From contig JAEEUB010000011.1 in the NCBI GenBank assembly GCA_016286785.1, positions 1 to 36,617 of the forward strand: 36,617 bases of DNA, written 5' to 3'. Both the position numbers and the translations under genes were made by a program. Source of the stretch: Candidatus Saccharimonadota bacterium. GTDB taxonomy: Bacteria > Patescibacteriota > Saccharimonadia > Saccharimonadales > Saccharimonadaceae. The notes under the pieces are model-generated. The model worked only from the letters and a program-made list of their open reading frames with translations, did not search any database and had not been told where the DNA came from. Below, in pieces: positions 10,955-36,430 of the stretch. Each line of letters opens with the position of its first letter. The stretch's first letter is position 1.

Positions 10955-12292
10955 ATGAACTGCCAAGAATTAAGCCAAGATATCAAAAGATTAAAATCCC
11001 TACGTAACTCTCTAAAAGAGAAAGTGGATTCTGCTACTGAAACTGGTTTTGGGAGAATAGCGGTAGAATCGGTTAAAGAAGATATTACTAGTGCAGCAGA
11101 TCAAATATTAGAGAAATATGTAAATGATTTCTATGAAAAGAATCCAGAATTATTACATGTTACACTTGGGAAGAGGATTGATGGGTTTGCGGATGCGAAT
11201 GGTAATCCTGCTTGGGTTAGCTCCATCGCTCCTATCCCAGGAACAGATAATCTGCTAATTGGTGGAATTCTTGGTGCACTTTATGAATACCAAAAACAGC
11301 AGGATGGATCGTATAAGCTTGGGAAAAGAATTGATGGGTTTAAACATGCGAGTGGTAATACAACCTCCATTTACTCCATCGTTCACATCCCTGGTACGGA
11401 TAATCTGCTAATTGGTGGGGATGATGGCGTACTTTACGAATACCAAAAACAACAGGATGGAGCGTATAAGCTTGGGAAAAGAATTGATGGGTTTGAGAAT
11501 ATGAATGGTAGTCCAGCCCGCGTTACCTCCATCGCCCACATCCCTGGTACGGATAATCTGCTAATTGGTGGGCATTTTGGTGTACTTTATGAATATCAAA
11601 AACAGCCAAATAGCCCATACAAGCTTGGGAAGATGATTGATGGGTTTGAGGATACAGATGGTCGTCGAACCCACATTAACTCCATCGCTCGCATCCCTGG
11701 TACGGATAATCTGCTAATTGGTGGGAATGATGGCGTACTTTACGAATACCAAAAACAACAGGATGGAGCGTATAAGCTTGGGAAAAGAACTAAGTGGTTT
11801 ACGGGTGCGTATAGTAGTCATCCAGCCTCCATTCGCTCCATCGTTCACATCCCCGGTACGGATAATCTGCTAATTGGTGGAGATTTTGGTGCACTTTATG
11901 AATACCAAAAACAGCAGGATGGATCGTATAAGCTTGGGAAAAGAATTGATGGGTTTAAACATGCGAGTGGTAATACAACCTCCATTTACTCCATCGTTCA
12001 CATCCCCGGTACGGATAATCTGCTAATTGGTGGAGCTGATGGCGCACTTTATGAATACCAAAAACAGCAGGATGGATCGTATAAGCTTGGGAAGATGATT
12101 GATGGGTTTGAGGATTCAGATGGTTATCCAACCTCCATTTACTCCATCACTCATATCCCCGGTACGGATAATCTGCTAATTGGTGGAGGTGGCGGTGCAC
12201 TTTATGAAGCTTGTGCTAATCTTCCATCACTATCTAATCTCAAAAGGTCCTTGCCACAAATAATTAATAAAAATATTCAACAGGATGTCTAA
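10955..12292 (+). CDS. Propeller-like repeat protein with seven 51-residue repeats
   Basis: A 445-residue paralogue of the protein at 5105-6577. It has the same helical head (MNCQELSQDIKRLKSLRNSL), seven repeats with IPGTDNLLIGG cores, and the tail SLSNLKRSLPQI. One repeat is 52 residues and lacks the usual RIDGF start (KRTKWFTGAYSS). Repeats 2 and 6 are nearly identical in DNA and protein (both carry FKHASGNTTSIYSI), a sign of internal recombination. It is transcribed away from the MoxR operon, and the next paralogue starts 3 nt after its stop, so the two are co-transcribed. Function is unknown. Confidence 0.8.
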   Translation: MNCQELSQDIKRLKSLRNSLKEKVDSATETGFGRIAVESVKEDITSAADQILEKYVNDFYEKNPELLHVTLGKRIDGFADANGNPAWVSSIAPIPGTDNLLIGGILGALYEYQKQQDGSYKLGKRIDGFKHASGNTTSIYSIVHIPGTDNLLIGGDDGVLYEYQKQQDGAYKLGKRIDGFENMNGSPARVTSIAHIPGTDNLLIGGHFGVLYEYQKQPNSPYKLGKMIDGFEDTDGRRTHINSIARIPGTDNLLIGGNDGVLYEYQKQQDGAYKLGKRTKWFTGAYSSHPASIRSIVHIPGTDNLLIGGDFGALYEYQKQQDGSYKLGKRIDGFKHASGNTTSIYSIVHIPGTDNLLIGGADGALYEYQKQQDGSYKLGKMIDGFEDSDGYPTSIYSITHIPGTDNLLIGGGGGALYEACANLPSLSNLKRSLPQIINKNIQQDV

Positions 12293-12295
12293 ACT

Positions 12296-13463
12296 ATGAA
12301 TTGCCAAGAACTAAACCAAGACATCAAAAAACTAAAATCCCTACGTGACTCATTGAGAGAGAAAGTAGATATTGCCATTGAAACAGGATTAGGTAGAATA
12401 GCGATAGAATTAGCTAAAGATAACGCTACTAGTGCGACAGATCAAGTATTAGAAAAATACATGGATGATTTCTGCGAAAAGAATCCAGGATTAAGACGCC
12501 TAACGCTTGAAAAAAGAATTGATGGGTTTGTAAATGTAAATGGCTACCCAACTGGTGTTAATTCCATCGCTCCTATTCCAGGTACAGATAATTTATTAAT
12601 CGGAGGAAGTAATGGCGTACTTCATGAATACAAAAAACAACCAGATGGCTCATATCGGTTAGGAGAAAGGATTGAAGGATTCGTAGATGCAGATGGCAAA
12701 CCAACTAGTGCTTATTCCATCGCTCCTATTCCTGATACATATAATCTATTAATTGGGGGAGGTGATAGTGCGCTTTACGAATACCAAAAACAACCAAACG
12801 GATTATATCGGTTAGGAGAAAGAATTGATGGATTCGTAGATGCAAATGGCGGACCAGCTTGGGCTCTTTCCATCACTCCTATTCCAGGTACAGATAATTT
12901 ATTAATAGGGGGAGAATTTGGTGCACTTTACGAATACCAAAAAACAACCAGATGGCTCATATCGGTTAGGAGAAAGAATTGATGGGTTTGTAACTGCAAA
13001 TGGCGAACCAACTCAGGTTTTTTCCATCTCTCCTATTCCTGATACATATAATCTATTAATTGGGGGAGATGATAGTGCACTTTACGAATACCAAAAACAA
13101 CCAGATGGCTCATACCAGCTAGGAAAAAGGATCGAGGGGTTTGTAGATGCGTATGGCGAACCAACTCAGGCTTATTCCATCTCTCCTATTCCTGGTACAG
13201 ATAACTTATTAATCGGGGGAAATAACGGCGCACTTTACGAATACCAAAAACAACCAGATGGCTCATATCAGCTAGGAGAAAGGATTGAAGGATTCGTAGA
13301 TGCAAAGGGCAAACCAACTTGGGCTCTTTCCATCACCCCTATTCCTGGTACGGATAATTTATTAATCGGGGGAGGTTTGGGCGCACTTTACGAAGCTCAT
13401 GTTAATAATCCATCGCTATCTGATTTTAAGAAGGCTCTACCACAAATAGTTCATAACAACTAA
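12296..13463 (+). pseudogene. Third propeller-like repeat paralogue, frameshifted in an A tract (six repeats)
   Basis: The head (MNCQELNQDIKKLKSLRDSL) and two and a half repeats read in one frame from 12296 until a stop at 12982. The rest of repeat 3 and three more repeats plus the tail (SLSDFKKALPQIVHNN) continue in the +1 frame to 13463. The break is at 12939-12944, where CC-A6-C replaces the CC-A5-C found at the same place in other repeats. Removing one A restores a 388-residue, six-repeat protein. It could be a real null allele, a phase-variable switch, or a sequencing error. No other damage is visible, which argues against an old pseudogene. Confidence 0.8.
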
Positions 13464-24235: not shown

Positions 24236-24848
24236 AAAAAGGCGGACCATTGGGTCCGCCCTGGAGAAGATAAGGTACGGGGATAAGAACCTTTCGGTTA
24301 GTCTTTTAATGCGCAAAGGTTTTCGCCAGTGGCACACTCACCTACACTTGCTAAGACCATCCCCTTATGCAGCTACCGTTCGTAGCCTTGGCCTTTAGGC
24401 CAAACGTTCCGCCCCATTCGCAGTCAATCAAAAGGAGGAAAAGGTTGCGGCGGATCCCTAAGCCCCCTAAATAGGACCCACCGCCATAGCCACTATAACC
24501 CGCAGTTAGAACGGGGGCTTGTGTAAGGCCCCAGGACTCAAGGAATCCAAGATTCCAAAAGCCTGAGGCGGTAAACACTAATTGACGAAACGCGCGTACC
24601 TTACGTCGCAACCAAACTTACCCCATGTCAGCTTCGAGGCACCGTTCTCGGCATCAATCGGGCAAGCGTTCTACCCCATGTCAGCTTCGAGGCACCATTC
24701 TCGGCATCAATCGAGCAAATTGCGTCGAAACGACGTGCTAGAAGGATAGATTATCCTGCTAACATGTCGCTTCGACATATCATAATTTAGCTACATAATG
24801 TTTAGTTTAATCTACTCGCTTTTACAAGTTTCTCCAAACTTTTAGCGC
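24236..24848 (-). ncRNA. Candidate large structured RNA, about 613 nt
   Basis: A promoter (TTGCAA, 17 nt, TATACT) and a strong terminator frame this gene-free stretch on the minus strand. It has many local hairpins, for example TTGGCCTAAAGGCCAA and CTAACCGAAAGGTTCTTA, and two tandem copies of a 43-nt unit near the 5' part (24632-24717). No ORF with a ribosome binding site is present. It lacks the signatures of tmRNA, SRP RNA and RNase P RNA that I looked for. In size it is like the OLE, GOLLD and ROOL classes, but I cannot match it to any of them. Confidence 0.55.
24241..24260 (-). terminator. Terminator of the 0.6-kb RNA
   Basis: Minus strand GGCGGACC/GGTCCGCC with a 4-nt loop, followed by TTTTT. 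Confidence 0.85.
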
Positions 24849-25095: not shown

Positions 25096-25161
25096 CATAA
25101 AGCATAACAAACACATAAATCATAGCAAGTTTTTGATATGGTTCTTATAGTTTCTTGCATT

Positions 25162-25191
25162 AAAAAGCCCCCGGCAAAGTGCGCCGGAGGC
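25162..25191 (-). terminator. Terminator of unit 1
   Basis: Minus strand GCCTCCGGC/GCCGGGGGC then TTTTTA. One pair is G-U only in the minus-strand RNA, supporting that direction. Units 2 and 3 end with the same type of stem. Confidence 0.85.
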
Positions 25192-25204
25192 AGAAAAAGT
25201 GTTG

Positions 25205-25330
25205 ATGGGTTTTGGTTTGCCTTTTGACATCTTAGAGCTCGACATCTATCGGCATGCGCAGACCCAAGAACTGCGCGCTTGAGCACGAGGTCTTTAGGAA
25301 CTTACAGGAGGCGACCTTAGCCTCCGCTTT
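25205..25330 (-). repeat. Structured element copy e5 (3' region of unit 1)
   Basis: A diverged copy of the structured element. It keeps the GCGCAG/CTGCGC hairpin with an 8-9 nt loop and the following TTGAGCA. It also has an H-type pseudoknot: AGGTC (25288), GGAGGC (25307), GACCT (25313), GCCTCC (25320). The motifs TTACAGGAG and CTCCGCTTT of the pseudoknot are shared with copy e2, while the pairing stem has changed on both sides. Confidence 0.55.
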
Positions 25331-25367
25331 ATTCGGGGTGTTCCCTACCCCTACCCGGCGAGCCCCG

Positions 25368-26234
25368 CTACAGTCTCCGGGCGATGGCCGCCCTGCGGAC
25401 GGCTTCGTCGGAATCCGAGGAGCAGACATTGGCACGGCGGAGTATTTCATCCACCAGAGCCTCCGCCTCCTCCAAAGGAAGGTGGGGCGAGAGCTCTTCG
25501 ATGCCCTGCTTGTACCAGTCCGCCATGCGGACCTTGGTAAAGCCGGCATTCTCGAGAGCTTCGCGCCAACCGTCCTCTGGAAGCTCCTCGTCCTCGGTAA
25601 AAGCGTACCGGGTCTGGACATCCGCCGGCATCCACAGTTTTGCAGTCTGCGGATTGCAGCGAAGACCTTTGAGGTCGATCTCGTTGTAGCCGAGAGCACG
25701 CAGCTCCGGCAAGAACGACAGATCGCTCATTCCCGAGATGTACGGGTGTACAATCGGGAAGGCCCGGACGCCATACCGCTTGGCGCGGGCGAGCGTGCGG
25801 AGACGGCTCTTCGTACTGGTCCGTTCGAGAGAATCGAGACCAGTGATTGAGATCGTCAGGCGCACGTTCGGGATCTCCGCAAGGCGGCGCATCTCTTCGT
25901 CGGTGACTTCGAACTTTGTCACCAGAGAGAGAATCTTCGCTACTTGCGGGACCTCTGCGAGGACATAGTCTAGCTCTTTCCGGAATTTCGGCCAGAATGG
26001 ATCCGAAATTCCGTTGAAGCCTACTATGTCTCCCCGCAGAAGTTCCAGCGGGAAGTCATAGAAACTACGCCTCGCAGCCTCGTCGCCGAGGTCGGGCGGG
26101 GGGTTCAATATAGTCACAGACTTATTGACCCCCAGCAGGCTGGATGCCCGCCACTGAGTATTCCTGCGCTCGACTTCAGTCACCACGCAGTACTTGCAGC
26201 CGACGGGACAGCCGTATGTTCCTTGTTCTAGCAT
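25368..26234 (-). CDS. Radical SAM protein (canonical order)
   Basis: A 288-residue radical SAM protein with the cluster motif at the N-terminus: YGCPVGCKYC (Cys9, Cys13, Cys16; CxxxCxxC). Barrel motifs follow: FNGISDPFWP (the GGEP-like position), LVTKFEVT, and RLTISITGLDSLE. The last 90 residues are helical and Asp/Glu-rich. The function is unknown. A strong AGGAGGTG lies 6 nt before the ATG. It is the last gene of unit 1 and pairs with the upstream radical SAM gene, whose C-terminus is related to this protein's N-terminus. GC content is much higher than in the chromosomal genes. Confidence 0.88.
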   Translation of the reverse strand: MLEQGTYGCPVGCKYCVVTEVERRNTQWRASSLLGVNKSVTILNPPPDLGDEAARRSFYDFPLELLRGDIVGFNGISDPFWPKFRKELDYVLAEVPQVAKILSLVTKFEVTDEEMRRLAEIPNVRLTISITGLDSLERTSTKSRLRTLARAKRYGVRAFPIVHPYISGMSDLSFLPELRALGYNEIDLKGLRCNPQTAKLWMPADVQTRYAFTEDEELPEDGWREALENAGFTKVRMADWYKQGIEELSPHLPLEEAEALVDEILRRANVCSSDSDEAVRRAAIARRL

Positions 26235-26314
26235 TTTTTCACCTCCTTCTGGTGTGCTAGAGTTACTGAGGGTATTTAAGCCCGCCCCCTCAGCCCTGGC
26301 AGGGTCGAAGTTTG

Positions 26315-27514
26315 TTATTTCCTCGCCGCCTCGACTTCAGCGAGCTTGTCAATCAGGAGCGCCGGGGCAAAACCCACCCGGCGACCTATCTCGTTTTGGT
26401 TGTAGTACGTATCTACGATACAATACTTACAACCGTAACATCTTTCGATGTTACGAGAGATAGGCCACCAGGAGTTCAGACCCTGGATACCCCCAATCTC
26501 GGGGAAGGCCGGGAAAGTGATTTTCCCGACCTCCTTATCACCGTCGTCATTGCGACCGTATTGCGTCGCCATGACTCCGGAGACGAACCGGATAAACGCC
26601 AGGTCCCCGAGCCTAACGTTCCCCTCTACCGAGATGTGCGCCACCTCTGGCTCACGCCAGCAGGTGGTGCAACAACTCGGGCAGCGGAGCCGGTTCTCTC
26701 CGCTGACTTTACAGAGTCCGTGCCCGGAGGCGGGCACGAACTCCACTTCGTAGCCGAGGTAACGGAGCAGTTCGAGACTGCCCGGCCGCGGCCTCGAGGG
26801 ACCCTGGCAAGTAGCGCGGAGCGGGCAAGCCAGTTCCTCGCACTTGACCAGGTTGGGGGAGTTATAATACGGGTTGTAAGCCCGCTCCTCCCCCAGGACC
26901 GCCGCAACGGCGCAGGCGGTGCGCGTAAACATCTGCGCACCGTACTCCCGCGCCAAATCGCGGCAGTGGGAGTAGACTTCCCCGGGCATAACCTTCACCC
27001 GGAGAGCCCATTCGGTGCGCTGATCAGGGCTCATCGCCTCGACCAACGCCTCATCACCCCGGAATCCGGATATGACGATCGGGCAGCACCCGCGCCCAGC
27101 TGCCGCCACGCCAGAGAAGATCTTGCGAAGCTTCTCCTCCGTCGTGTTATACGGCGGCATGAGCGGCCGGACGGCCGCTACCACCGGCACGCCGGCATCC
27201 GCCAGAAGGCGGATGTTCTCGTACCGGTGTTCCGAGCCGACCCCCTCAAGGGAAGTCAGCTCAGAAATGCTGACCATCACGATGAGACGGAGCCCCGCCG
27301 CTCGGAAAGACTTTAAGTCCTCCAAGTGACGAGGGCAGAGTCGCCCCTTGGTGATAATGCCCACTGGGCCGGTGTGGCCCGAGTGAGCGAGCTCTTTCAG
27401 CGAGGCGACGGTGTCGCTCCACTGGATGATGGGATCCCCGTAGAAGTTGTTCACCGCTACGGGGATCTGACGGAGAAGGTCCCGCCAGATATTCAGCGTT
27501 GCCTCATTCATCAT
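26315..27514 (-). CDS. Radical SAM-related protein with the cluster motif at the C-terminus (apparent circular permutation)
   Basis: A 399-residue protein. It opens directly in the barrel: VAVNNFYGDPIIQW, GPVGIITKGRL, LRLIVMVSISELTSLE, which align with FNGISDPFWP, LSLVTKFEV and VRLTISITGLDSLE of the next gene. The Cys motif lies at the end: RCYGCKYCIVDT (Cys359, Cys362, Cys365; CxxCxxC rather than CxxxCxxC). Joining the C-terminus (LIDKLAEVEAARK) to the N-terminus (MNEATLNIWRDLL) restores the usual order. Two extra Cys groups lie between (225/230/236 and 278-285), perhaps extra Fe-S sites. The start is secure: AGGAGGTG lies 8 nt upstream, after a hairpin. Substrate is unknown. Confidence 0.78.
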   Translation of the reverse strand: MMNEATLNIWRDLLRQIPVAVNNFYGDPIIQWSDTVASLKELAHSGHTGPVGIITKGRLCPRHLEDLKSFRAAGLRLIVMVSISELTSLEGVGSEHRYENIRLLADAGVPVVAAVRPLMPPYNTTEEKLRKIFSGVAAAGRGCCPIVISGFRGDEALVEAMSPDQRTEWALRVKVMPGEVYSHCRDLAREYGAQMFTRTACAVAAVLGEERAYNPYYNSPNLVKCEELACPLRATCQGPSRPRPGSLELLRYLGYEVEFVPASGHGLCKVSGENRLRCPSCCTTCWREPEVAHISVEGNVRLGDLAFIRFVSGVMATQYGRNDDGDKEVGKITFPAFPEIGGIQGLNSWWPISRNIERCYGCKYCIVDTYYNQNEIGRRVGFAPALLIDKLAEVEAARK

Positions 27515-27556
27515 GGGGCAACACCTCCTTTCTTTCCCCTCCTTGCGGGAGGGGGT
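27515..27556 (-). promoter_or_regulatory. Hairpin plus ribosome binding site before the permuted radical SAM gene
   Basis: Minus strand CCCTCC/GGAGGG hairpin, then GAAAGAAAGGAGGTG and the ATG. Three other genes of this region (31117, 30161, 33143) have the same hairpin, purine spacer and ribosome binding site. Confidence 0.55.
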
Positions 27557-27658
27557 TGGAATTGTTAAGGGTCTGATCCTGGTTTTAAACCAGAGGACCC
27601 ATTCCTCTCCACGAAATCATTGCTCTTGGAGAGGATGGATGCTCTGTCTATGGTGTGA

Positions 27659-28984
27659 CTATTTACTCGCAATTTGCTGCACAGCATCTATTAATCGTTC
27701 GGCGTCCTCCCTGTTATTACAAATCGAGAACGAAGCCCTGATAACGCCCGGCATAGACGAAACATCGCCTTTCTCTACGTCTGCGATAATTTGTTTCTCC
27801 TGCTCCGGTGTAATTTTGAGCAAATCTCTTACGACATGATATACACAGAAATTTCCCGCCCTCACGCCGATAGCATATTTATTGTTTAATTCATCTGCTA
27901 CGGCTGTTGCACTTTTGCCTTCAATTACAAAAGGTATAACCGTAGATAGGTGTTTCTCTGGGACTAAGAGCTTTACGCCTTTAATTTCCTTTAGCCCCTG
28001 ATAGGCAAATTTAGTTAATTCAGTTTCGTATTTTTCAACCTTCTCTAAACCAATCTTTTTTAGTTCCTTCAGAGCTAATCCCATTGATACTGCGCCCACC
28101 GCGTTTGGTGTACCTGGATCGTGTGCTAATTGGTTCTTATAGCGGAGGAATCTACCACCAGACGTAATGTATGGCAAATTGCCACCACCAATCTGATATG
28201 GTAAGAATTTGTCTAAAAACTCCTTTGGTCCCACCACGAACCCACCGCCGTAAGGAGCGTAGAACTTATGTCCAGAGGCGACGAGAAAGTCGATGCCCAT
28301 TTCTACCATGTTAATCGGATGATGCTGGATAAATTGACAGCCATCTACAATGTAAAAAGCGCCATATTTATGCACCAATTCTCCTACCTTCTTAATATCT
28401 GGGCAATAACCAGTGAGATTGGAAGAAGCCGTCAAGATAAACACCTTGATGTCTTCTGTTTTCAATAGTTGTTCAATTTTTGCTAAATCGAACTCACCGT
28501 TTTTGTCTAGTCCATAGGTTAGAACTTGCTCCCCACCCAGTTTTTGTACCTCATCGGCGAGATCGCCAACGTTTGTATAATTAACTTGTTCGGCGCCTAG
28601 CGCTTTTTCACCCTCCGTCTTAATCCAAGGGAGCCAAGATGAGCTATGTTCGATACTCGACACTGCAACTTTACCCTTTAAGAAGCTAAAGAAGTGCGCT
28701 AAGATATTCATCCCACCCGTAGTATTGCCCGAGAAGATTACGTACGAATCTTTTGGGGCGCCCACGAAATCCTTAATTATCTCGCGTGATTCTTCGTAGA
28801 TATTGGTTGAGATCTTCGATTTTTCACCAGAACCCCGGTGTACGGAGCCATAGGTCGTAAGGTAGTCTTCTACCCCTTTTTCTACCGCTTTAAGCGGAGA
28901 TGTGGTAGCGGCGTTATCTAGATTGACGTAACGCTTTCCTTTTACCGCAAAATCGGCAATTCTATTATTAAATAAATTGTTCAT
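27659..28984 (-). CDS. Cysteine desulfurase-like class V aminotransferase (SufS/CsdA type)
   Basis: A 441-residue PLP enzyme. Key residues are present: His113 (SSIEHSSSW), Asp214 (IVDGCQ), Lys240 in ASGHKFYAPYGGGF (PLP Schiff base) and Cys380 in VRAGNFCVYH (the persulfide Cys position). Such enzymes take sulfur from cysteine for Fe-S clusters or thiolation. It sits in unit 1 just before two radical SAM genes, which need Fe-S clusters or may insert sulfur. It is AT-rich like the chromosome, unlike its GC-rich neighbours, so the operon is a mosaic. GAAAGGAT precedes the ATG. No SufU/IscU partner is visible. Confidence 0.87.
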   Translation of the reverse strand: MNNLFNNRIADFAVKGKRYVNLDNAATTSPLKAVEKGVEDYLTTYGSVHRGSGEKSKISTNIYEESREIIKDFVGAPKDSYVIFSGNTTGGMNILAHFFSFLKGKVAVSSIEHSSSWLPWIKTEGEKALGAEQVNYTNVGDLADEVQKLGGEQVLTYGLDKNGEFDLAKIEQLLKTEDIKVFILTASSNLTGYCPDIKKVGELVHKYGAFYIVDGCQFIQHHPINMVEMGIDFLVASGHKFYAPYGGGFVVGPKEFLDKFLPYQIGGGNLPYITSGGRFLRYKNQLAHDPGTPNAVGAVSMGLALKELKKIGLEKVEKYETELTKFAYQGLKEIKGVKLLVPEKHLSTVIPFVIEGKSATAVADELNNKYAIGVRAGNFCVYHVVRDLLKITPEQEKQIIADVEKGDVSSMPGVIRASFSICNNREDAERLIDAVQQIASK

Positions 28985-28998
28985 ATAATCCTTTCTTT

Positions 28999-29295
28999 AT
29001 TATCCCCACCTCTTAGTTGAAGCGAGATAGATAGAAATCTATATGGATTCATAAATATCTAGCTTCAAATATGGAAGTGGGTGGGGTACTAGACCCCACC
29101 CAGGAAAAGTGGGTTTTGTTTAGCCCTGAGCTGGGCGAGCGCAGACCCATTACTGCGCTTTCGAGCAAATTGGTCAGTGACGGCCCGACCAGAGCCCCGC
29201 GGAGCTTCCCCGCTCGGTCAACAGTCATGCGGTTTGTCGCATAGCTGCTGCCTTGGTATTAATGCCTCTTTTTTGCGTCATTGGTTGGACGGAGG
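28999..29295 (-). repeat. Structured element copy e1
   Basis: Full copy between the 199-residue protein gene and the desulfurase gene. In plus coordinates it has TTGAAGC/GCTTCAA arms, a GGGTGGGG/CCCCACCC hairpin, GCCC/GGGC, GCGCAG/CTGCGC with loop ACCCATTA, GGTC/GACC, the constant block AGAGCCCCGCGGAGCTTCC, the stem 29220-29250, CCTTGGTATTAATGCC, and a final CGTC/GACG hairpin. Transcription is from the minus-strand promoter, but the stems can form in either strand. Confidence 0.7.
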
Positions 29296-29561
29296 ACTTT
29301 GGTATCCCCGATGCCATAGGTTCGTAAAGCAGACCTACTCTGCTACATGTTTTTTTGTTCTGGTAAGCGGGCATGTTCCGCTTCCTATGTGTAGGGGGGG
29401 TAGAACCCCCTGGTTTAAAGTTTGACGCCTTTGGGGTGGGGGTTGGCGTCGGTTTACCCCCTTATGTGTTACGGGCGTCCCCTCGCCCGAGAGTCAGATG
29501 AAACCCGAGTACATCGGGTCACCTCCTTTCTTGCTCTCCTGGCTAGATGCGGATACAGCGG
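29296..29561 (-). other. Gene-free structured stretch, includes an H-type pseudoknot
   Basis: No ORF with a ribosome binding site. It holds an H-type pseudoknot: GACGCC (29424), GGGGGT (29438), GGCGTC (29445), ACCCCC (29456). Further hairpins are CGGGCG/CGCCCG and CCCGA/TCGGG just before the stop of the upstream gene. It is probably part of the structured RNA between genes. Confidence 0.45.
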
Positions 29562-30161
29562 TTAGGCCGGATCGATCTCACACAGGAGGCCGATGTCGTT
29601 GCCCTCCTCGTCACAGACGAGGAAGGTCCTGTAGGACTCCTCACTTTTAGTGAGGATGTACCCCTTCGGGGTACCATCCGGCGCGAAGCCGGAACGAACC
29701 CAGTAGGCCTGGCCGGGCCACCCGGTCTGGGTACCCCAGCTAGCCCCGTATGACCAGCTGCCATCCGGATTGCGCCAAATGTTGGCGCCCTTGAGGATGG
29801 TAGGGGGCTGGTCCGTCATGGGCTCGGCCTCTAGGACGGTGGCCTTCGCGTAGAAGGTTCCATCCACCTCGACGAGGTTGGTGGCCTCATTGGCTATCCA
29901 CCAGGTGTTCCACCCGGTGGCCGTCTTTTTAGACGGCTCGTAGCCGATGACGGCACCTAGAGGCGCCACCTCGTCGCCCTCGACACAAGTGAGTGCGAGT
30001 TTCCCCTCCACGACCCGAATCGAGCCGCGGAGAAACTCTGGGATGTCCTGCGCGGTGTTAACGCGCACGGCATCCTTCTTCGACCCCGCGGCCTTGTGGA
30101 TGCGCAGGGCGGTGGTCGGGGCGATGGCGGCGGCGGACATGGCGCTGGCGAGGTTGCTCAT
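29562..30161 (-). CDS. Unknown 199-residue protein, GC-rich
   Basis: I do not recognise it. It starts MSNLASAMSAAAIAPTTALR and is rich in Trp, Gly, Thr and Asp in the middle (GWNTWWIANEATN; NPDGSWSYGASWG), with a likely all-beta fold, and ends LLCEIDPA. There is no clear signal peptide; the Ala-rich start is helical. I choose the start at 30161 because the CCCCGTATGGGG hairpin, GAAAGGGG and the ATG follow each other; an in-frame ATG at 30197 would lie before that hairpin. The hairpin plus G-rich site is shared with the 143-residue gene. Second gene of unit 1. Confidence 0.6.
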   Translation of the reverse strand: MSNLASAMSAAAIAPTTALRIHKAAGSKKDAVRVNTAQDIPEFLRGSIRVVEGKLALTCVEGDEVAPLGAVIGYEPSKKTATGWNTWWIANEATNLVEVDGTFYAKATVLEAEPMTDQPPTILKGANIWRNPDGSWSYGASWGTQTGWPGQAYWVRSGFAPDGTPKGYILTKSEESYRTFLVCDEEGNDIGLLCEIDPA

Positions 30162-30247
30162 GGCGAACCCCTTTCTCCCCATACGGGGATATGTCACTGT
30201 TCCATTATTGGATAAAGGGGATACTTTTCCCCACCAGTGACGCTACT

Positions 30248-30311
30248 ATTTTAAGTAGCATTCTAGCGATTTTTCTATATAAAAAACGCCAGGATGCTAC
30301 TTAAAATGGCG
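30248..30311 (-). promoter_or_regulatory. Possible attenuator upstream of the 199-residue protein gene
   Basis: On the minus strand CGCCA/TGGCG followed by TTTTTT (30281-30311) looks like a terminator. A perfect 14-bp inverted repeat (30248-30261 with 30294-30307) would use the loop of that terminator to form a competing stem. The two cannot form together. TTTTAAGTAG/CTACTTAAAA in this repeat is also the first stem of the small RNA at 19673. Confidence 0.5.
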
Positions 30312-30665
30312 ATATTGTTAATGTGCTTACTTATGTATTAAAGTAAGATAACTGCAGATTCAACTGAATTTAAAGATATCTGACTTTAATATGGAATGGG
30401 CGGGGCTTAAAGCCCCACCCGGAGGGTTTTGTTTGGCCCTGAGCAGGGCGAGCGCAGACCCATTACTGCGCTTTAGAGCATTAGTCGGTGACGGCCTGAC
30501 CAGAGCCCCGCGGAGCTTCCCCGCTCGGTCGACAGCCTTTTGGGGGCTGTTACCTTGGTATTATGCCCCAGTTTAACGTCATGGGTTGGACGAGTTGGCA
30601 CTTTCAGGGTGGCGCTTTTGGCAGTTTACAGGAGATGCGCCGATCCTCCGCTTTGCAGGTACTGC
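30312..30665 (-). repeat. Structured element copy e2 with downstream pseudoknot
   Basis: Full copy after the 143-residue gene. In plus coordinates: TATTAAAGT/ACTTTAATA arms, GGGCGGGG/CCCCACCC hairpin, GCCC/GGGC, GCGCAG/CTGCGC with loop ACCCATTA, GTC/GAC, constant block, stem ACAGCC/GGCTGT (30531-30550), CCTTGGTATTATGCC and CGTC/GACG. Then comes a pseudoknot: GGCGC (30611), GGAG (30631), GCGCC (30637), CTCC (30646). The ACAGCC stem replaces the ATGCG stem of e1 with both sides changed. Confidence 0.7.
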
Positions 30666-30685
30666 CTACCCACGCCCGTCACGGC

Positions 30686-31117
30686 CTACTTGGTGTAGAC
30701 CGTGAACTTCTGGGCAGTCATCCGCTTCTCAGCGGGTGGCACACGCTCGAAGCCGGGCGCCGGGCACATGCCCAGCACCCGGCCCGGGTACGCCTGGGCC
30801 GCGATGATTGAGCCGACAATCCGAAGATTGTCATGCCCCTCCTCGCTAGCCCACTGCTCGAGCTGGTCGAGGATAGCTTCCCCTTCAGGGGAGCCGACGA
30901 AGGTGGTGCAGACAAGGTCCTCACCAACCTGCTCCTCTACAACTCGAGCGTTGACGACCCACTCGGAGGTCTTCTCGCCAGGTGCGACCGAGGTCGGTAC
31001 CACAACCGTCTCGCCATCTTTGCTCAGGAAGCAGATGGCGTGAGGTGTGGTGTTTACGATCACCTTGCCGTCGACCTGTGCGGAGAAGGCGGCAATGGTG
31101 CTGAGCGAGGTAGCCAT
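30686..31117 (-). CDS. Unknown 143-residue protein, GC-rich
   Basis: First gene of unit 1. It reads MATSLSTIAAFSAQVDG, then a strand-rich part VIVNTTPHAICFLSKDG and a conserved-looking end (VGSIIAAQAYPGRV, APGFERVPPAEKRM). The VNTTPHAI...PG pattern recalls a small phage or hypothetical-protein domain (VNLTPHxI), and perhaps the NLLGxDI domains of the protein at 22319; both links are weak. There is no signal peptide or catalytic motif. A CCCCGCAAGGGG hairpin, GAAAGGGGTG and the ATG define the start. Confidence 0.6.
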   Translation of the reverse strand: MATSLSTIAAFSAQVDGKVIVNTTPHAICFLSKDGETVVVPTSVAPGEKTSEWVVNARVVEEQVGEDLVCTTFVGSPEGEAILDQLEQWASEEGHDNLRIVGSIIAAQAYPGRVLGMCPAPGFERVPPAEKRMTAQKFTVYTK

Positions 31118-31560
31118 AGGGCACCCCTTTCTCCCCTTGCGGGGATCTTGGCCCGTCGGCCGAAAATGTTATGGCCGGACGGACGTCTCCTTGAGGCCAA
31201 TTGTGAGCTCTATAATTATATAAAGCACACGATTGGCCTTTAGGAGAATACTCTGAAAGGTTTTACCAACTAGATTGTTAAGGTTCTGCTCCGAGTCACT
31301 CTTGTGAGTGTCACGAGCAGAGCTGGAGGAACAGGTGGACCAAAAGGGCCTATTCCTTCGGCTCAGCCCGTGCATATCGGACTGAGTTTTATCCCACCCT
31401 GAGTGTGCCCACCCAAAGTTATCAGGATAATTAAATACATAAAGTAAATGTACTTTAATATCGGTATGGAAGGAACTGTTTAGTTCCCCGCTCACCCACC
31501 ATGATATTAATTCTTACGCAATCTCCCGAATGTTCAACACATTTATTTGATTGTTGCTAG
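31118..31560 (-). promoter_or_regulatory. Long structured leader of unit 1
   Basis: About 440 nt without a gene between promoter and first ATG. Stems include GGCCAAT/ATTGGCC (31192, 31231), CTGCTC/GAGCAG (31286), CTCAG/CTGAG (31362, 31380), and the AAAGTA/TACTTT and GGAACT/AGTTCC hairpins. Its upstream half is duplicated in the unit 2 leader. Confidence 0.6.
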
Positions 31561-31561
31561 T

Positions 31562-31590
31562 ATTATAGCACGAGCATGATATTTTGTCAA
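31562..31590 (-). promoter_or_regulatory. Consensus promoter of unit 1
   Basis: Minus strand TTGACA (31585-31590), 17 nt, TATAAT (31562-31567), a perfect match. Confidence 0.9.
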
Positions 31591-31637
31591 TTATAATAAC
31601 ACTATTTTGTATTTTACAGGGGTAAAATGTGGCGAAA

Positions 31638-31660
31638 TTTGTCGAAGTGGGGTCGACAAA
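31638..31660. promoter_or_regulatory. TTTGTCGA palindrome, copy 1
   Basis: TTTGTCGA and TCGACAAA flank AGTGGGG. It lies about 50 bp upstream of the -35 of unit 1 and marks the end of the duplicated segment. Confidence 0.6.
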
Positions 31661-32464
31661 ATGACGTCCCAGAAGGCATAATCGGTCGATATTGATTACG
31701 CACTAAAGTCGAAAGGATCCCTTTCGAGGGATCAATACGCCAAAATTGAGGTAAAAAACTATAAAAAAATCTCTGGATTGGATTTTAAAACGGAAACTCC
31801 AGAAGAAGCCTTTATGTGCCGATGATATTCTAGGGCTTCATCGAATCATCACTAATTCCCTTTTGAGCGACGCGCGCTCGGGCGAGTTTCGCCATAACCA
31901 AGTTTACGCAGTAGATCAAGATGATGAAGTAGTCTATGAAGCGCCAGAGGCTCAGGACGTTAGACCAATGTTGAAAGAGTTTTTTGCTTGGCTGGACGAC
32001 CCAGAAAACAAGGTTCACCCAGTTATCCCTAGCACATTATGACTTTCGGGAGTCCTTGGTGCTTGATTCTTATTATGCGGTAGATAAAAAAGCTTATTAT
32101 GACACCCTAAAGACTGTCCAGCAGGGATCTTACGAGAAAGCTAAAGAGGCTGATTTAACGCCATGGCTAGAGTATTTTACAGAAGGATTCTTATCGTCGG
32201 TGGAGATACTGATGCTAGAATTGAATGTGCTATCAAACATTCATGGAGACACGGTGCCTAAGGAGGCTATCTAGAGACGAAAGTGATATTGTAAGCTATA
32301 TTGCGGAGTTCGGACCGATTAGCTTATCCGAAGCGCGAGATATACTACCAGAGATCCCACAAAGGACTCTGCAAAGGATTATTAGCGAATTAGTGAATGA
32401 TGGTTACCTGAAGACTGATGGGAATGGCCCAGCTACTAAGTATAAACTAATTGGGGAAAATTAG
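31661..32464 (+). pseudogene. Fic/DOC-family protein remnant, active site deleted
   Basis: Broken pieces of a Fic protein read in order on the plus strand but in different frames. Around 31694-31827 there is SVDIDYALKSKGSLSRDQYA; around 31825-32040 DILGLHRIITNSLLSDARSG, typical of the Fic N-terminal domain; then AHYDFRESLVLDSYY; then a C-terminal winged helix (SRDESDIVSYIAEFG ... TKYKLIGEN). The catalytic HPFxDGNGR motif, expected right after AHYDF, is missing. Several stops and frameshifts are present. AMPylation activity must be lost. It lies between units 1 and 2 and is AT-rich, like the chromosome. Confidence 0.85.
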
Positions 32465-32467
32465 ATT

Positions 32468-32493
32468 AAAAAGCCCCCGGCGTAGCCGGGGGC
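32468..32493 (-). terminator. Terminator of unit 2
   Basis: Minus strand GCCCCCGGC/GCCGGGGGC with a 3-nt loop, followed by TTTTTA. Same type as units 1 and 3. Confidence 0.9.
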
Positions 32494-32509
32494 ATTGAGC
32501 ATTTGAGCT

Positions 32510-32538
32510 GGAGTTTTTAAGGCAGACTCCGCACTGCC
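32510..32538 (-). other. H-type pseudoknot in the 3' region of unit 2
   Basis: GGAGT (32510), GGCAG (32521), ACTCC (32526), CTGCC (32534) interleave. On the minus strand the third loop is A-rich (TTAAAAA), typical of compact H-type pseudoknots. Confidence 0.5.
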
Positions 32539-32544
32539 GTTTGA

Positions 32545-32715
32545 GCATTGGATTTTGATTCCCTTCCAGGGGCGCAGATCCAGAACTGCGATTTTTGATC
32601 GGTGTCGGCCTGATCAGAGCCCCGCGGAACTTCCCCGCTCGGTCAACAGTTGTGCGGTTTGTTGCATAACTGTTGCCTTGGTATTAATGCCCATTTTAGC
32701 GTCGTGGGTTGGACG
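32545..32715 (-). repeat. Structured element copy e3
   Basis: After the 139-residue gene. In plus coordinates: CCC/GGG hairpin, CGCAG/CTGCG with loop ATCCAGAA, TGATC/GATCA (replacing GGTC/GACC), the constant block GAGCCCCGCGGAACTTCCC, CAACAGTT/AACTGTTG, CCTTGGTATTAATGCCC, and CGTC/GACG. It is very close to e4. Confidence 0.75.
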
Positions 32716-32723
32716 GTGGTGTC

Positions 32724-33143
32724 CTAGAGAATGGTGACTCTACCATTCTCTAGTCCTTCTATTAAATCATCCATCACCCCCTTTCTGAGCCGATCGAACT
32801 CGTCCCAAGTCGGGCCCCAAGGGGCCCAATAAAACTTCATTCGATCAACTTCCCCGTACCCTGGGATGTCGATCTTGCCGGAAGCGGCGCAGAAGCACTG
32901 CGCCGCTTCCTCACTACGACTGGCAGCTTTTAGCCGCCAGTCATAATGAATTCCAAACGCCCGGGAGGCCCCGAAAACTAAATAAACACCTCCCTCCGCG
33001 CTACCCGGCCCATCAAGGAGTTCCAGCTCCTTGACGGGGTTACTCCTACCCATGCCCGCTTGGGCATGGGTAGGAGAAGCGTAAGGATACGATTCGTGCA
33101 GGGCAATCCCTGCAACAAAAACCTTATTAATATTTTCGGCCAT
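32724..33143 (-). CDS. Unknown 139-residue protein, only gene of unit 2
   Basis: I do not recognise it. It starts MAENINKVFVAGIALHESYP, contains GGVYLVFGASRAFGIHYDWR and FYWAPWGPTWDEFDRLRKG, and ends in a helix and GRVTIL. It is soluble-looking and has two Cys (QCFCAA). It shows no clear similarity to the two small proteins of unit 1. A CTGGGA/TCCCAG hairpin, GAGGAGG and the ATG define the start. Flanked by structured copies e4 (5') and e3 (3'). Confidence 0.6.
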   Translation of the reverse strand: MAENINKVFVAGIALHESYPYASPTHAQAGMGRSNPVKELELLDGPGSAEGGVYLVFGASRAFGIHYDWRLKAASRSEEAAQCFCAASGKIDIPGYGEVDRMKFYWAPWGPTWDEFDRLRKGVMDDLIEGLENGRVTIL

Positions 33144-33216
33144 GGTGGCCTCCTCTCTGGGATTTCTCCCAGATTACTCCGCTCTTACGCGGAGCCTCTC
33201 GGCCTATCCGAGAGGT

Positions 33217-33387
33217 AGATTTTGTTTGTCCTTCTTTAGGACTCGCAGACCATATACTGCGATTTTTGATCGGTGTCGGCCTGATCAGAGCCCCGCGGAA
33301 CTTCCCCGCTCGGTTGACAGTTATGCGGTTCGTCGCACAGCTGTCACCTTGGTATTAGAGCCCATTTTAGCGTCGTGGGTTGGACGA
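33217..33387 (-). repeat. Structured element copy e4
   Basis: Between the unit 2 leader and the 139-residue gene. In plus coordinates: GTCC/GGAC hairpin, CGCAG/CTGCG with loop ACCATATA, TGATC/GATCA, constant block, GACAG/CTGTC extended stem, CCTTGGTATTAGAGCCC, CGTC/GACG. Two more hairpins lie just before it (CTCCGC/GCGGAG at 33177 and CCTCTCGG/CCGAGAGG at 33194). Confidence 0.75.
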
Positions 33388-33745
33388 TTATTTGGACTCT
33401 CTTATATTTCGGCCTTATAGGTCAAAAAAATAAGAGAGATTATTTTTGATTGTTAATGAGCGAGCCTCGCTTACTATTAATATAGCGCTTGAGGCTCTCT
33501 CCCCACCCGTTTATCAATCGCGGGTTGGGCAGACGGGTCAAATTCGCCTGCTCAGCCCGCGCATATACGAACTGAGTTTATCCCACCCTGAGTGTGCCCA
33601 CCCAAGTTATCAGGATAATAATGCATAAACTAAAGGTACTTTAATATCGGTATGGAAGGAACTGTTTAGTTCCCCGCTCACCCACCATGATATTAATTCT
33701 TACGCAATCTCCCGAATGTTCAACACATTTATTTGATTGTTGCTA
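33388..33745 (-). promoter_or_regulatory. Long structured leader of unit 2
   Basis: About 360 nt from the promoter to copy e4, with no gene. It includes CTCAG/CTGAG, CCCACCCG/CGGGTTGGG (33503-33529), GCGAGCC/GGCTCTC-type pairings and a CTCTCTTAT/ATAAGAGAG stem (33395, 33431). The part near 33456-33540 is repeated at the right edge of the window. Confidence 0.6.
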
Positions 33746-33747
33746 GT

Positions 33748-33776
33748 ATTATAGCAAAAAGGATGTGTTTTGTCAA
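33748..33776 (-). promoter_or_regulatory. Consensus promoter of unit 2
   Basis: Minus strand TTGACA (33771-33776), 17 nt, TATAAT (33748-33753). The spacer differs from unit 1 while the boxes are kept. Confidence 0.9.
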
Positions 33777-33821
33777 TCATGGTAAGGCAATAAATAAAAA
33801 TAACAGGGGTAGAATAGAAGA

Positions 33822-33850
33822 GATTTTGTCGAAAGGGGGTCGACAAAATC
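33822..33850. promoter_or_regulatory. TTTGTCGA palindrome, copy 2
   Basis: Perfect 11-bp arms GATTTTGTCGA and TCGACAAAATC around AAGGGGG, about 45 bp upstream of the unit 2 -35. Confidence 0.65.
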
Positions 33851-33897
33851 ATAAAAAGCTAAAGGTTTCCAAATTCCCTTTTTCTACACATGAGTGT

Positions 33898-33903
33898 TAT
33901 AAT
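33898..33903 (+). promoter_or_regulatory. -10 box of the 840-residue gene
   Basis: TATAAT 7 nt before the ATG at 33911, implying a leaderless mRNA and deciding the start. Confidence 0.5.
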
Positions 33904-33910
33904 AAAGAAT

Positions 33911-36430
33911 ATGAACCTAAGCGAGTCAATTTCGGGTTTTTCTCAGAATTCAAGTGGTGAACTTGATGATTCGAGCAGTTTCTCGACCAAAGTTACTTTG
34001 CCCGATGATGTCGCTATAGAACAATGGAAAGATTATAATCATATACCGTTAATCAATAGTTATAATGCCGCAATAAACACCTCCCGCCCACCAGAGACTA
34101 CTGCAGAAATACTAGAAAGTGAATCCGCCCAGCGTATTCTCCCCTATCTATCTTTGGGGCTTCTTTCCGACCAAGAAAAGGCAAGCCTGATTTCGCTTGC
34201 CGAAGCCGCAGTCAATGGGGCCGATTATATTCATAATAACCATGCCTTATTTGGAGTTACGGATGATTATATTGCTGGAATAGTTCACGAAGGAGAAAGT
34301 CACAGAGAATACAAATTGGCAAACAGATATTGTGAAGCGCGCAAGCTTTTTTGCGCCTGTCTCCTTGATAGCTATAATAAATCCACGCCAGACAAAAAAA
34401 TGCAAATTCGCAAAACGTTTTTTTCCTCTTCACCAGACTTCGCATCTTATTGTGGCGGTCTAGAAGATTCACTTGAGCTCCTCACCATATCAGATCGTAC
34501 AAGTACAGATTATTATAGTCCAATGGACAATCTTAGGGACGAAATCATCTACACTTACTCTTTTGCAAGCTTTAATGCTTTCGATAACATCCTTTCATCC
34601 GAAAATAACCCCATAAAACAGCTCCAGCTTCTGCCAGTCATTTATGATTTAACGAAAAAATGCTCGCCCGAAGACTACACTAGTCCAATTATTTATCGTG
34701 CTTCCGAGGCTTTTTGTAACTTAAGCGATTCTCCAAAAACTCCCCCTTTAGTTAGAATAGTCGCCGATAGCCTTAATCAAAAAATTGAATACGATCTTAA
34801 TCTGGAATGGATCGAGATTGACGTTACCGACCCAAAATATGCCGCTCTAGTTCAATACGATACCGAAAGTCGAGCACGAATAAAAGCCGAGCAAGATGAG
34901 CTTCACCGCGCTTTTCCAGATCTTCCACAAAATCAACACTTGGTTAAAATTGCTCCAGGTGTAGCCACCACGGTAAATAGACACAACTCCCTCGGGCTTA
35001 TTTCTACTAGTGACGGCCGACAATCATCGTTTCTCGATTATTCATCAGACAACTCTCTTGGACTCAATCAAGATGCCGTCTTTTTGCTCTGTTCCGCTCA
35101 TAATCCCGATATAGAATCGCTTATTAGCTCCAAGCTCTCAATTAATCTTTCCGAAATCTCTCTCTCCGCCCAAGTCCAGCTCCTTAAATTCATGACCGAG
35201 GCGGGAGATACTCGCTTTAACTCCTTATGTTCAGTGCTACGCAACGTAAACCCGGAATTAAGGTCAAAATTAGCAGAAAGTTTTCTTGCCGCAGACTTTG
35301 GCGATGATTTTGGCGATTCTCTGCTGGCAATTGCTAGTTCTGAATCTTTGGGTGATGAAGAAAAAGAGAGAATTTTTGATAGCATTAACTCATGCCGAGA
35401 GTCTGTCAGCAAAATAACTGGCCTATACGCCGATATTGATGATGGTCAATTCACTAGGGAGTATGCCAGAGCAACAAATGAAAGATTAACTGATGCGATT
35501 ATGGTCTTTCGAGAAATTGCCGAGAGAGGCATTGCTAAGGTTAATTTAGGATGGGCTGGACAGTTAAGTTTTAGCTACGCAGAGGCGATAGAAGCGTTAG
35601 AGCTAGAAGCAAAGTCACTATTTATAATCAGTGGTGTACTTGATGATGTTATGTCTGGCGCTGAGGGTGTTTTTGCTGAACAAGTTTTGCAACCAGAAGA
35701 TACTGGTCCACACAATCGTTCTTTATATAATTTTTATTCGCCAAGGTACGGATATGCAATGTTACTCACTAGACCAGAAGGGGCGAGTTCTTTTAACCAG
35801 ATGATAGAATTCGGTAAGAATCGCAGCAGATATGATACTAATGCAAAAAACGTTGGAGTTGAAGCTACGATTAGCTTTATCGCTAATCCGATTGATCCAT
35901 TTTCCCTGCCAAATCCATATAGGCCAGATTCGATAGGTTTAAAAGACCCAACTTTTTATGATCCTAGCACTATGGATACCGTAAGTGCGATTCGTTTAGA
36001 TCGCGAAGGTAGAGCTCCAGGGACGGAAGCAAACGATTTAGAAAGAAACCCAAATAATAGTGAAGGGATAATCTCCGTGGATCTTGCGGGAATTTTTAGG
36101 CGTGCAGATACACCACCTGGTAAAATTGCTCGTTTGATAAGCGCTGGCAATAAGCTGCGCGCAGAAAAAGGCGGAGGAGAGTTTTCGTTAAACCATAATA
36201 CAAGGTGGTTTAATCAAGAACGATATGGAACAGCTAGAGGATTTCGCGAGATAGTTGCATACGTTGATATTATAGCGCTAAGGTTATGTGCCGAATATGC
36301 GCCAGGAGAAAAAGTTGCAAGTTTTAGAGGATTGTTTGAAGCAGAGGCAAGGCGTGAACGCCGCCAGGGTTATCGGGGAAGAGGCAGAAAAGCATCAATG
36401 GCAACAAGAGTAAAAGCTCTACATAAGTAG
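33911..36430 (+). CDS. Unknown 839-residue protein
   Basis: I do not recognise this large soluble protein. It is Ser/Asp/Glu-rich and mostly helical in the first 600 residues (for example PYLSLGLLSDQEKASLISLA), with a mixed C-terminal part (FYSPRYGYAMLLTRP, GVEATISFIANPIDPF, LNHNTRWFNQERYGTARGF) and a basic tail (RRERRQGYRGRGRKASMATR). No signal peptide or membrane segment is visible. It may be a lineage-specific protein. An ATG at 33890 is also in frame, but the TATAAT box lies between the two, so 33911 is preferred. It is AT-rich and lies between units 2 and 3. Confidence 0.7.
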   Translation: MNLSESISGFSQNSSGELDDSSSFSTKVTLPDDVAIEQWKDYNHIPLINSYNAAINTSRPPETTAEILESESAQRILPYLSLGLLSDQEKASLISLAEAAVNGADYIHNNHALFGVTDDYIAGIVHEGESHREYKLANRYCEARKLFCACLLDSYNKSTPDKKMQIRKTFFSSSPDFASYCGGLEDSLELLTISDRTSTDYYSPMDNLRDEIIYTYSFASFNAFDNILSSENNPIKQLQLLPVIYDLTKKCSPEDYTSPIIYRASEAFCNLSDSPKTPPLVRIVADSLNQKIEYDLNLEWIEIDVTDPKYAALVQYDTESRARIKAEQDELHRAFPDLPQNQHLVKIAPGVATTVNRHNSLGLISTSDGRQSSFLDYSSDNSLGLNQDAVFLLCSAHNPDIESLISSKLSINLSEISLSAQVQLLKFMTEAGDTRFNSLCSVLRNVNPELRSKLAESFLAADFGDDFGDSLLAIASSESLGDEEKERIFDSINSCRESVSKITGLYADIDDGQFTREYARATNERLTDAIMVFREIAERGIAKVNLGWAGQLSFSYAEAIEALELEAKSLFIISGVLDDVMSGAEGVFAEQVLQPEDTGPHNRSLYNFYSPRYGYAMLLTRPEGASSFNQMIEFGKNRSRYDTNAKNVGVEATISFIANPIDPFSLPNPYRPDSIGLKDPTFYDPSTMDTVSAIRLDREGRAPGTEANDLERNPNNSEGIISVDLAGIFRRADTPPGKIARLISAGNKLRAEKGGGEFSLNHNTRWFNQERYGTARGFREIVAYVDIIALRLCAEYAPGEKVASFRGLFEAEARRERRQGYRGRGRKASMATRVKALHK

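Follow-up and report, generated by a model that had tools for sequence, protein, structure and literature searches.

Covarying RNA cassettes and strongly folded coding sequences in a family of predicted Saccharibacteria operons

Layout of the units and their relatives

The window analysed here is the complete contig C20 (36,617 nucleotides, nt) of a 0.77-Mb Candidatus Saccharimonadota genome. It carries two minus-strand units, A and B, in which structured RNA cassettes accompany coding sequences that are mostly computed to fold strongly. Judged from their sequences, the units are two members of a family of predicted chromosomal operons of one genus and a sister genus of Candidatus Saccharibacteria, whose members possess a palindromic putative operator, a perfect sigma-70 promoter, a structured leader, exchangeable cargo genes, modules designated K, F and E between the genes, and a terminator. 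Those contigs of the relatives that carry names belong to Candidatus Saccharibacteria, and two originate in ruminant guts, namely cattle duodenum and goat duodenum. All sequences used, where named, are metagenome assemblies, and all folding figures given below are computed values.

Unit A has the exact palindrome TTGTCGA-N7-TCGACAA (33826–33846), followed on the minus strand by the promoter (33748–33776), the structured leader (33391–33745), an open reading frame (ORF) of 139 amino acids (aa) (32724–33143) and the terminator (32467–32493). Unit B has its palindrome at 31639–31659, promoter at 31562–31590, leader at 31120–31560 and terminator at 25161–25191, all but the palindrome again on the minus strand. 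As an earlier note on this DNA had described, the two units have the same promoter and terminator types: both promoters match the sigma-70 consensus at 12 of 12 positions (TTGACA-17-TATAAT, with the TG of an extended −10 element), and both terminators are strong. The palindrome is located 54–56 bp upstream of the −35 element in each unit, and 55–56 bp upstream at unit A. The 139-aa ORF of unit A matches no Pfam, PHROG or NCBIfam family. The minus-strand genes of unit B encode, in order, a 143-aa protein related to a phage family (L019 111 aa, phrog_30542/21731; 30686–31117), a 199-aa protein of no known family (29562–30161), a SufS-type cysteine desulfurase of 441 aa (27659–28984), a radical-SAM-like protein of 399 aa with weak radical SAM matches (26315–27514) and a radical SAM protein of 288 aa with a CPVGCKYC motif (25368–26234). 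The match of the last protein to PF04055 (E = 5.7e-6) is slightly below the Pfam cut-off.

In its own genome the palindrome occurs exclusively at three unit promoters, the third of which is on contig C7; that contig ends within the leader. Among 174 genomes of the genus, 17 contain the combined pattern of palindrome and TTGACA, with 24 sites in all (reversed controls, 0); outside the genus it was found in just one sister genus of the same family. The leader, which is present in units A and B and on contig C7, is conserved and covarying: an alignment of 13 copies has two-sided changes at 7 pairs and contains invariant unpaired blocks. A stretch of 137 nt is 98% identical between leaders A and B. 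A second leader type (TATAGTTAGTAAAGC...) follows the same operator and promoter at loci L120, L121, L113 and L117 (genomes G055, G143, G220 and G017), with cargo that is mostly less folded. At L019 (703–1769), an operator and promoter stand ahead of ~1 kb in which no ORF is convincing (the longest has 46 aa); this stretch might be a large non-coding RNA of the regulon.

RNA cassettes and coding-sequence folding

Four cassettes of ~170 nt lie on the minus strand of the window and have one covarying structure: c33 (33216–33388), c32 (32549–32717), c30 (30423–30594) and c29 (29110–29293). They were recovered at the four sites where the earlier note had placed whole copies, with the same order of stems. 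The first part of a cassette is termed K and the last part F. In 5' to 3' order, a cassette consists of a small CGTC/GACG hairpin, the invariant TAATACCAAGG, a variable long hairpin, the invariant ACCGAGCGGGGAAG(C/T)TCCGCGGGGCTCTG, a GGTC/GACC-type stem that encloses AGGCCG(A/T)CAC, a CGCAG/CTGCG hairpin and a GCCC/GGGC hairpin with the end AAACAAAA. K includes invariant unpaired blocks, and F an A-rich single-stranded linker, CAAAACCC. Changes on both sides of stems that had been quoted as signs of a selected structure (GCCC/GGGC to GTCC/GGAC, GGTC/GACC to GATC/GATC, and CAACAGTT/AACTGTTG to ACAGCC/GGCTGT) are real in the sequence.

A lone cassette copy folds only moderately better than its shuffled versions (z = −2.6); the support for the structure comes from covariation. 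In an independent MAFFT alignment of 8 copies, 98.4% of the cells pair, compared with 25–49% for slid partners, and 11 cells have two-sided changes (shuffled mean 4.3; 0 of 500 shuffles as high). The claim of a selected, covarying structure is upheld in a larger alignment. An alignment of 10 rows fitted to the covariance model, which is biased toward that model and has a remnant and a doubtful sequence among its rows, gave 96.1% pairing and two-sided changes in 24 of 37 pairs. The covariance-model search, which the earlier note had proposed for other genomes, added four complete copies and a remnant from three further Saccharibacteria, namely two copies in G038, two in RGIG482 (locus L019) and the remnant in G047. 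Weak R1 matches in G092, G011 and L029 were rejected as cassettes. In agreement with the suggestion that no named RNA class has this layout, the Rfam search at gathering thresholds yielded only tRNAs in the window and no family for the cassettes, and a permissive search gave sub-threshold matches to unrelated families only.

Seven of the 8 full cassettes lie downstream of a stop codon, often by less than 100 nt, and several stand directly before a terminator; at L019, K is immediately ahead of the terminator. Cassette c32 starts 7 nt past the stop codon. Cassette c33 directly follows the leader with no gene before it, as if a gene had been lost. Further modules on the minus strand accompany the cassettes of unit B. 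A D9 hairpin (30617–30654) is of the same kind as a hairpin ahead of K in L019, and leader-like E modules, composed of a GGGTGGGG hairpin, TTCCATATTAAAG and an AT-rich stem, are located at 30335–30420 and 29008–29106. Genome G247 has F and E modules in the same F–E order, with a different core in place of K. The fifth copy of the earlier note, a diverged whole cassette at 25205–25330, was not borne out: this minus-strand mosaic (25200–25330) is an upstream D9 hairpin joined to a 3' F module, with the core absent. Its composition indicates that the modules move separately.

The coding sequences themselves are strongly folded. Their z-scores compare the minimum free energy with that of synonymous-codon shuffles preserving the protein and codon usage. 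The 399-aa gene has the strongest folding (z = −17.6), followed by the genes for the proteins of 288 aa (−11.3 to −13.3), 139 aa (−8.5 to −10.1), 199 aa (−7.0 to −7.9) and 143 aa (−6.0 to −6.8), and four ordinary neighbour genes have values of 0 to +1.7. Cargo coding sequences of relatives reach −5.4 to −11.2 in G038, −13.8 (210 aa, G138), −12.6 (146 aa, G043), and −11.0 and −9.9 (G015). By the same yardstick, genes of the RNA phage MS2 have z-scores of −4.6 to −15.0. The gain over shuffles is 0.07–0.20 kcal/mol per nt in unit genes and 0.065–0.087 in MS2, and the mean deviation in 40-nt windows is −2.4 kcal/mol in unit genes, −1.6 to −2.0 in MS2 and ~0 in ordinary genes. The units contain 52–62% GC in a genome of 42% GC. 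In an unbiased folding scan that covered 771 kb of this genome plus stretches of relatives, they rank at the top among all 840-nt stretches, and within this genome they form the longest folded stretches, which indicates that the folding is a property of the units and not of the genome.

In 19 of 20 genes, folding is better on the sense than on the antisense strand, to a degree exceeding the effect of composition (Wilcoxon p ~6e-6). Available G–U pairs are also more numerous in the sense strand of the 139-aa gene (21 vs 3) and of a G038 gene (29 vs 12), although not in all genes. The strand bias and the G–U pairs favour RNA over DNA as the folded molecule, which narrows the two options left by the earlier note, RNA or folded DNA, towards the former. 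Ribosome-binding sites and start regions of unit genes are about as accessible as those of control genes, but the remainder of the ORF is more closed (unpaired fraction 0.44 vs 0.33 in the ORF; control genes 0.47 vs 0.45). The ribosome-binding site is more open than the ORF in 23 of 25 unit genes, and many unit genes have a small hairpin directly before the Shine–Dalgarno sequence. The description of RNA cassettes set between genes is supported as to their structure but incomplete: they do not stand in isolation, being one module (K and F, then E) of transcripts predicted to be folded throughout, coding sequences included.

Cargo, regulator and neighbouring genes

Cargo varies from strain to strain at one locus and is often phage-related. 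The phage families detected include phrog_30542/21731, phrog_23674, phrog_4074 and phrog_5063. Other cargo includes AAA_33 polynucleotide-kinase-like, HD, nucleoside deoxyribosyltransferase-like and STIV_B116-like (AcrIII-1 type) proteins, radical SAM proteins and SufS. A G043 cargo protein matches PF08960 (AcrIII-1/STIV B116-like) with 33.5 bits, above the curated cut-off of 26; its ring-nuclease activity is putative. A supposed DUF1874-like nature of a 114-aa gene of G015 was not confirmed by Pfam, in contrast to that of the G043 cargo. PADLOC returned nothing beyond the resemblance of the STIV_B116-like cargo to Csx16 and a single negligible match. Searches of viral contigs and plasmids, the former with the radical SAM protein, cassette core and leader, gave no match.

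In G247, three units lie in tandem and include relatives of the 143-aa, SufS, 399-aa and 288-aa genes of the window. Between the window strain and G247, identity is 91% for the 288-aa protein but 46% for the 846-aa-type protein described below, a difference suggestive of horizontal movement. Only 2 of 170 genomes, that of the window and G247, encode the 399-aa protein. It has a CxxCxxC-like motif (CYGCKYC) near the C-terminus and radical-SAM-like sequence at the N-terminus, is possibly circularly permuted, and is encoded next to the normal 288-aa radical SAM gene. Many G247 genes have a common 5' module that extends through codon 4 (ATG GCT AAC TCC). The cargo array of locus L122 (G247:C11, 600–13700) contains seven copies of a 71-nt 5' module comprising a hairpin, a Shine–Dalgarno sequence and first codons, ATGGCTAACTCC; the genes differ beyond codon 4, as if captured anew behind a fixed start. 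A family of 128–133-aa genes (MDT..YDIVGGPSLDRI) follows the unit terminator in G038 and G047 (L015, 6584–6985, and L016, 6791–7177), and a similar 115-aa gene is present in G138.

Where a complete locus was read, a gene for a TrmB-type regulator diverges from the unit and lies beyond the 3' end of the 16S rRNA gene. The Pfam TrmB domain scored above its cut-off in both regulators examined, and this regulator may control the operons through the palindrome, its putative operator. Between the 16S rRNA gene and the regulator, L027 (1995–2558) and L028 (13467–14036) encode a protein with HVTT/HITL motifs that give an impression of a 2H phosphoesterase, with no Pfam match. On the opposite side of the unit lies the 846-aa-type protein of no known family, encoded in the window by the divergent plus-strand neighbour at 33890–36430. 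It is linked to units across the genus, being found in 10 genomes out of 170, and 9 of these 10 have units (shared ancestry uncorrected). A search of the PDB with its predicted structure (predicted local distance difference test, pLDDT, 71) gave no fold match with E below 0.5.

Several other features of the window were recorded. The region between units B and A (31638–32464) holds decayed ORFs, which we take to resemble a broken Fic-type gene. Two direct repeats of 47 bp with 96% identity, spaced by 53 bp, lie at 24619–24718, and related genes rich in IPGTDNLLIGG repeats occupy 5105–6577 and 10955–13463; a frameshift seems to have split one of these genes.

Interpretation of the folded transcripts

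With some hesitation, we favour a reading in which the units are a cargo system under TrmB control, with mRNAs that resist ribonucleases (RNases) by folding along their whole length and cassettes that protect and separate the cistrons. The TrmB-type regulator would act through the palindrome on the operons. The mRNAs would be selected for end-to-end folding, with only the ribosome-binding sites open, and the folded messages may escape single-strand-specific RNases when the cargo is needed (in infection, under RNase toxins or in dormancy). K–F would serve as a 3'-end protecting structure for the preceding gene, and the following gene would have E or the leader as its 5' structure; the A-rich linker of F would be a possible cut point at which the transcript is turned into single-gene messages. 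The cassettes are mostly positioned as 3'-untranslated-region elements, in a system that exchanges its cargo and includes a TrmB-type regulator and a palindromic putative operator. The interpretation in the earlier note is partly supported by the data above.

Structured stabilisers in 3'-untranslated or intercistronic regions, such as REP elements, are stem-loops of polycistronic mRNA that follow stop codons and precede terminators. The cassette modules resemble them in this positioning; the cassette differs as a 170-nt multi-helix covarying module with invariant loops, outside Rfam and tied to hyper-folded coding sequences. General selection on mRNA folding of coding sequences is known to keep the start region open with stronger folding inside (PMC7063772). 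Unit genes exhibit the same pattern, but here it concerns one operon set and has about the strength seen in an RNA virus, while other tested genes of the genome have none. No description of such operons or RNAs, and no matching system, was found in the open papers and databases consulted.

Several observations weigh against the favoured reading. Conserved specific structures were sought between homologous coding sequences and mostly not found, the 399-aa gene alone having a modest excess. Because the folds are poorly kept between homologues, selection on the coding sequences appears to be for foldedness as such, while K and the leader are specific conserved structures. The G247 cargo folds less (z about −2 to −8.5), folding almost vanishes in part of the cargo behind the sister leader type (L113, L117), and the SufS gene inside the operon, of normal GC, is nearly unfolded (z about −2). 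Strong folding could slow translation, and the transcription, processing and stability ascribed to the units are predictions from the DNA.

A rather unlikely alternative is that the cassettes are regulatory elements (riboswitches, attenuators or protein-binding sites) that tune each gene, with coding-sequence folding slowing or coupling translation. The invariant unpaired blocks of K and the leader do resemble ligand- or protein-binding sites, and the leader is conserved across its 13 copies. However, K usually stands after a gene and can directly precede a terminator, as in L019, a position ill-suited to control of a downstream start; the hyper-folding of entire coding sequences would be left unexplained, and no Rfam riboswitch matches. 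A comparison with Leviviricetes (MS2) raises another role: in both, coding RNA is folded far beyond synonymous shuffles, mainly into local hairpins, and folding per nt in the units equals or exceeds that of MS2. The folded transcripts might then themselves be the cargo, made compact so that they can be packaged or exported in the manner of single-stranded RNA phages. K, F, E and the leader would be the sites of recognition, and the linked 846-aa protein a possible partner. Selection of foldedness without conserved folds, the multiple copies of conserved RNA modules, the phage-related cargo and the co-occurrence of this uncharacterised protein with the units would fit such a role. Unlike phage genomes, the units are chromosomal DNA operons, several per genome, with ordinary sigma-70 promoters, terminators and ribosome-binding sites at a locus fixed downstream of the 16S rRNA gene. 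Pfam, PHROGs and NCBIfam searches of the window and related cargo revealed no RNA-dependent RNA polymerase (replicase) or coat (capsid) family, and the 846-aa model has no informative fold match. We consider packaging or export distinctly improbable. Also very doubtful is the wider proposal that complete mRNAs of regulated chromosomal operons behave like the compact folded RNA particles of RNA phages and undergo packaging or delivery, the recipient being for instance the host cell on which Saccharibacteria live. In that proposal K, F, E and the leader would act as handling signals, and the translated cargo would be phage-derived effectors.

The folding might instead be a mutational or compositional by-product, in which GC-rich foreign genes look folded through their GC content or through hairpin-generating mutation, with no selection on RNA structure. 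The GC contrast with the genome and the weak conservation of folds between homologues are compatible with this idea, but the controls preserve GC, protein and codon usage, the sense–antisense asymmetry exceeds composition, and the cassettes and leaders covary, so that we give it little credence. The arrangement also recalls integron arrays, with variable cargo genes, a conserved structured element after each and a common promoter. K would then be an attC-like recombination site that folds as single-stranded DNA, a reading suggested by strain-variable cargo at a fixed locus, one element per gene and the 5' modules common to G247 genes. No integrase adjoins the units, however, and the single tyrosine recombinase of the own genome is on contig C25. 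By eye, the cassette ends (5' GTCCAACCC and 3' GGCCAAACAAAACCC) are similar to each other and not complementary, in contrast to RYYYAAC/GTTRRRY arms; moreover, the sense-strand bias and G–U pairs suit RNA, the structure appears to be selected on the transcript, and the folding of coding sequences would be unexplained. On cassette ends, strand and integrase, the attC/integron reading was rejected, and we assign it hardly any probability.

Strong folding of whole coding sequences is familiar from RNA viruses. Here it occurs in a few bacterial operons that look regulated, and the rest of the scanned genome has nothing comparable. If the folding is real, some condition in these epibionts would let only folded messages work, and the cargo would have been rewritten codon by codon to fit. 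The units would then provide a natural model of maximally stable bacterial mRNA and a new family of modular untranslated-region elements. The combination of operator, leader and hyper-folding would be a marker for phage-derived cargo in poorly understood bacteria, and the finding raises the testable question of the use that Saccharibacteria make of phage-type genes.

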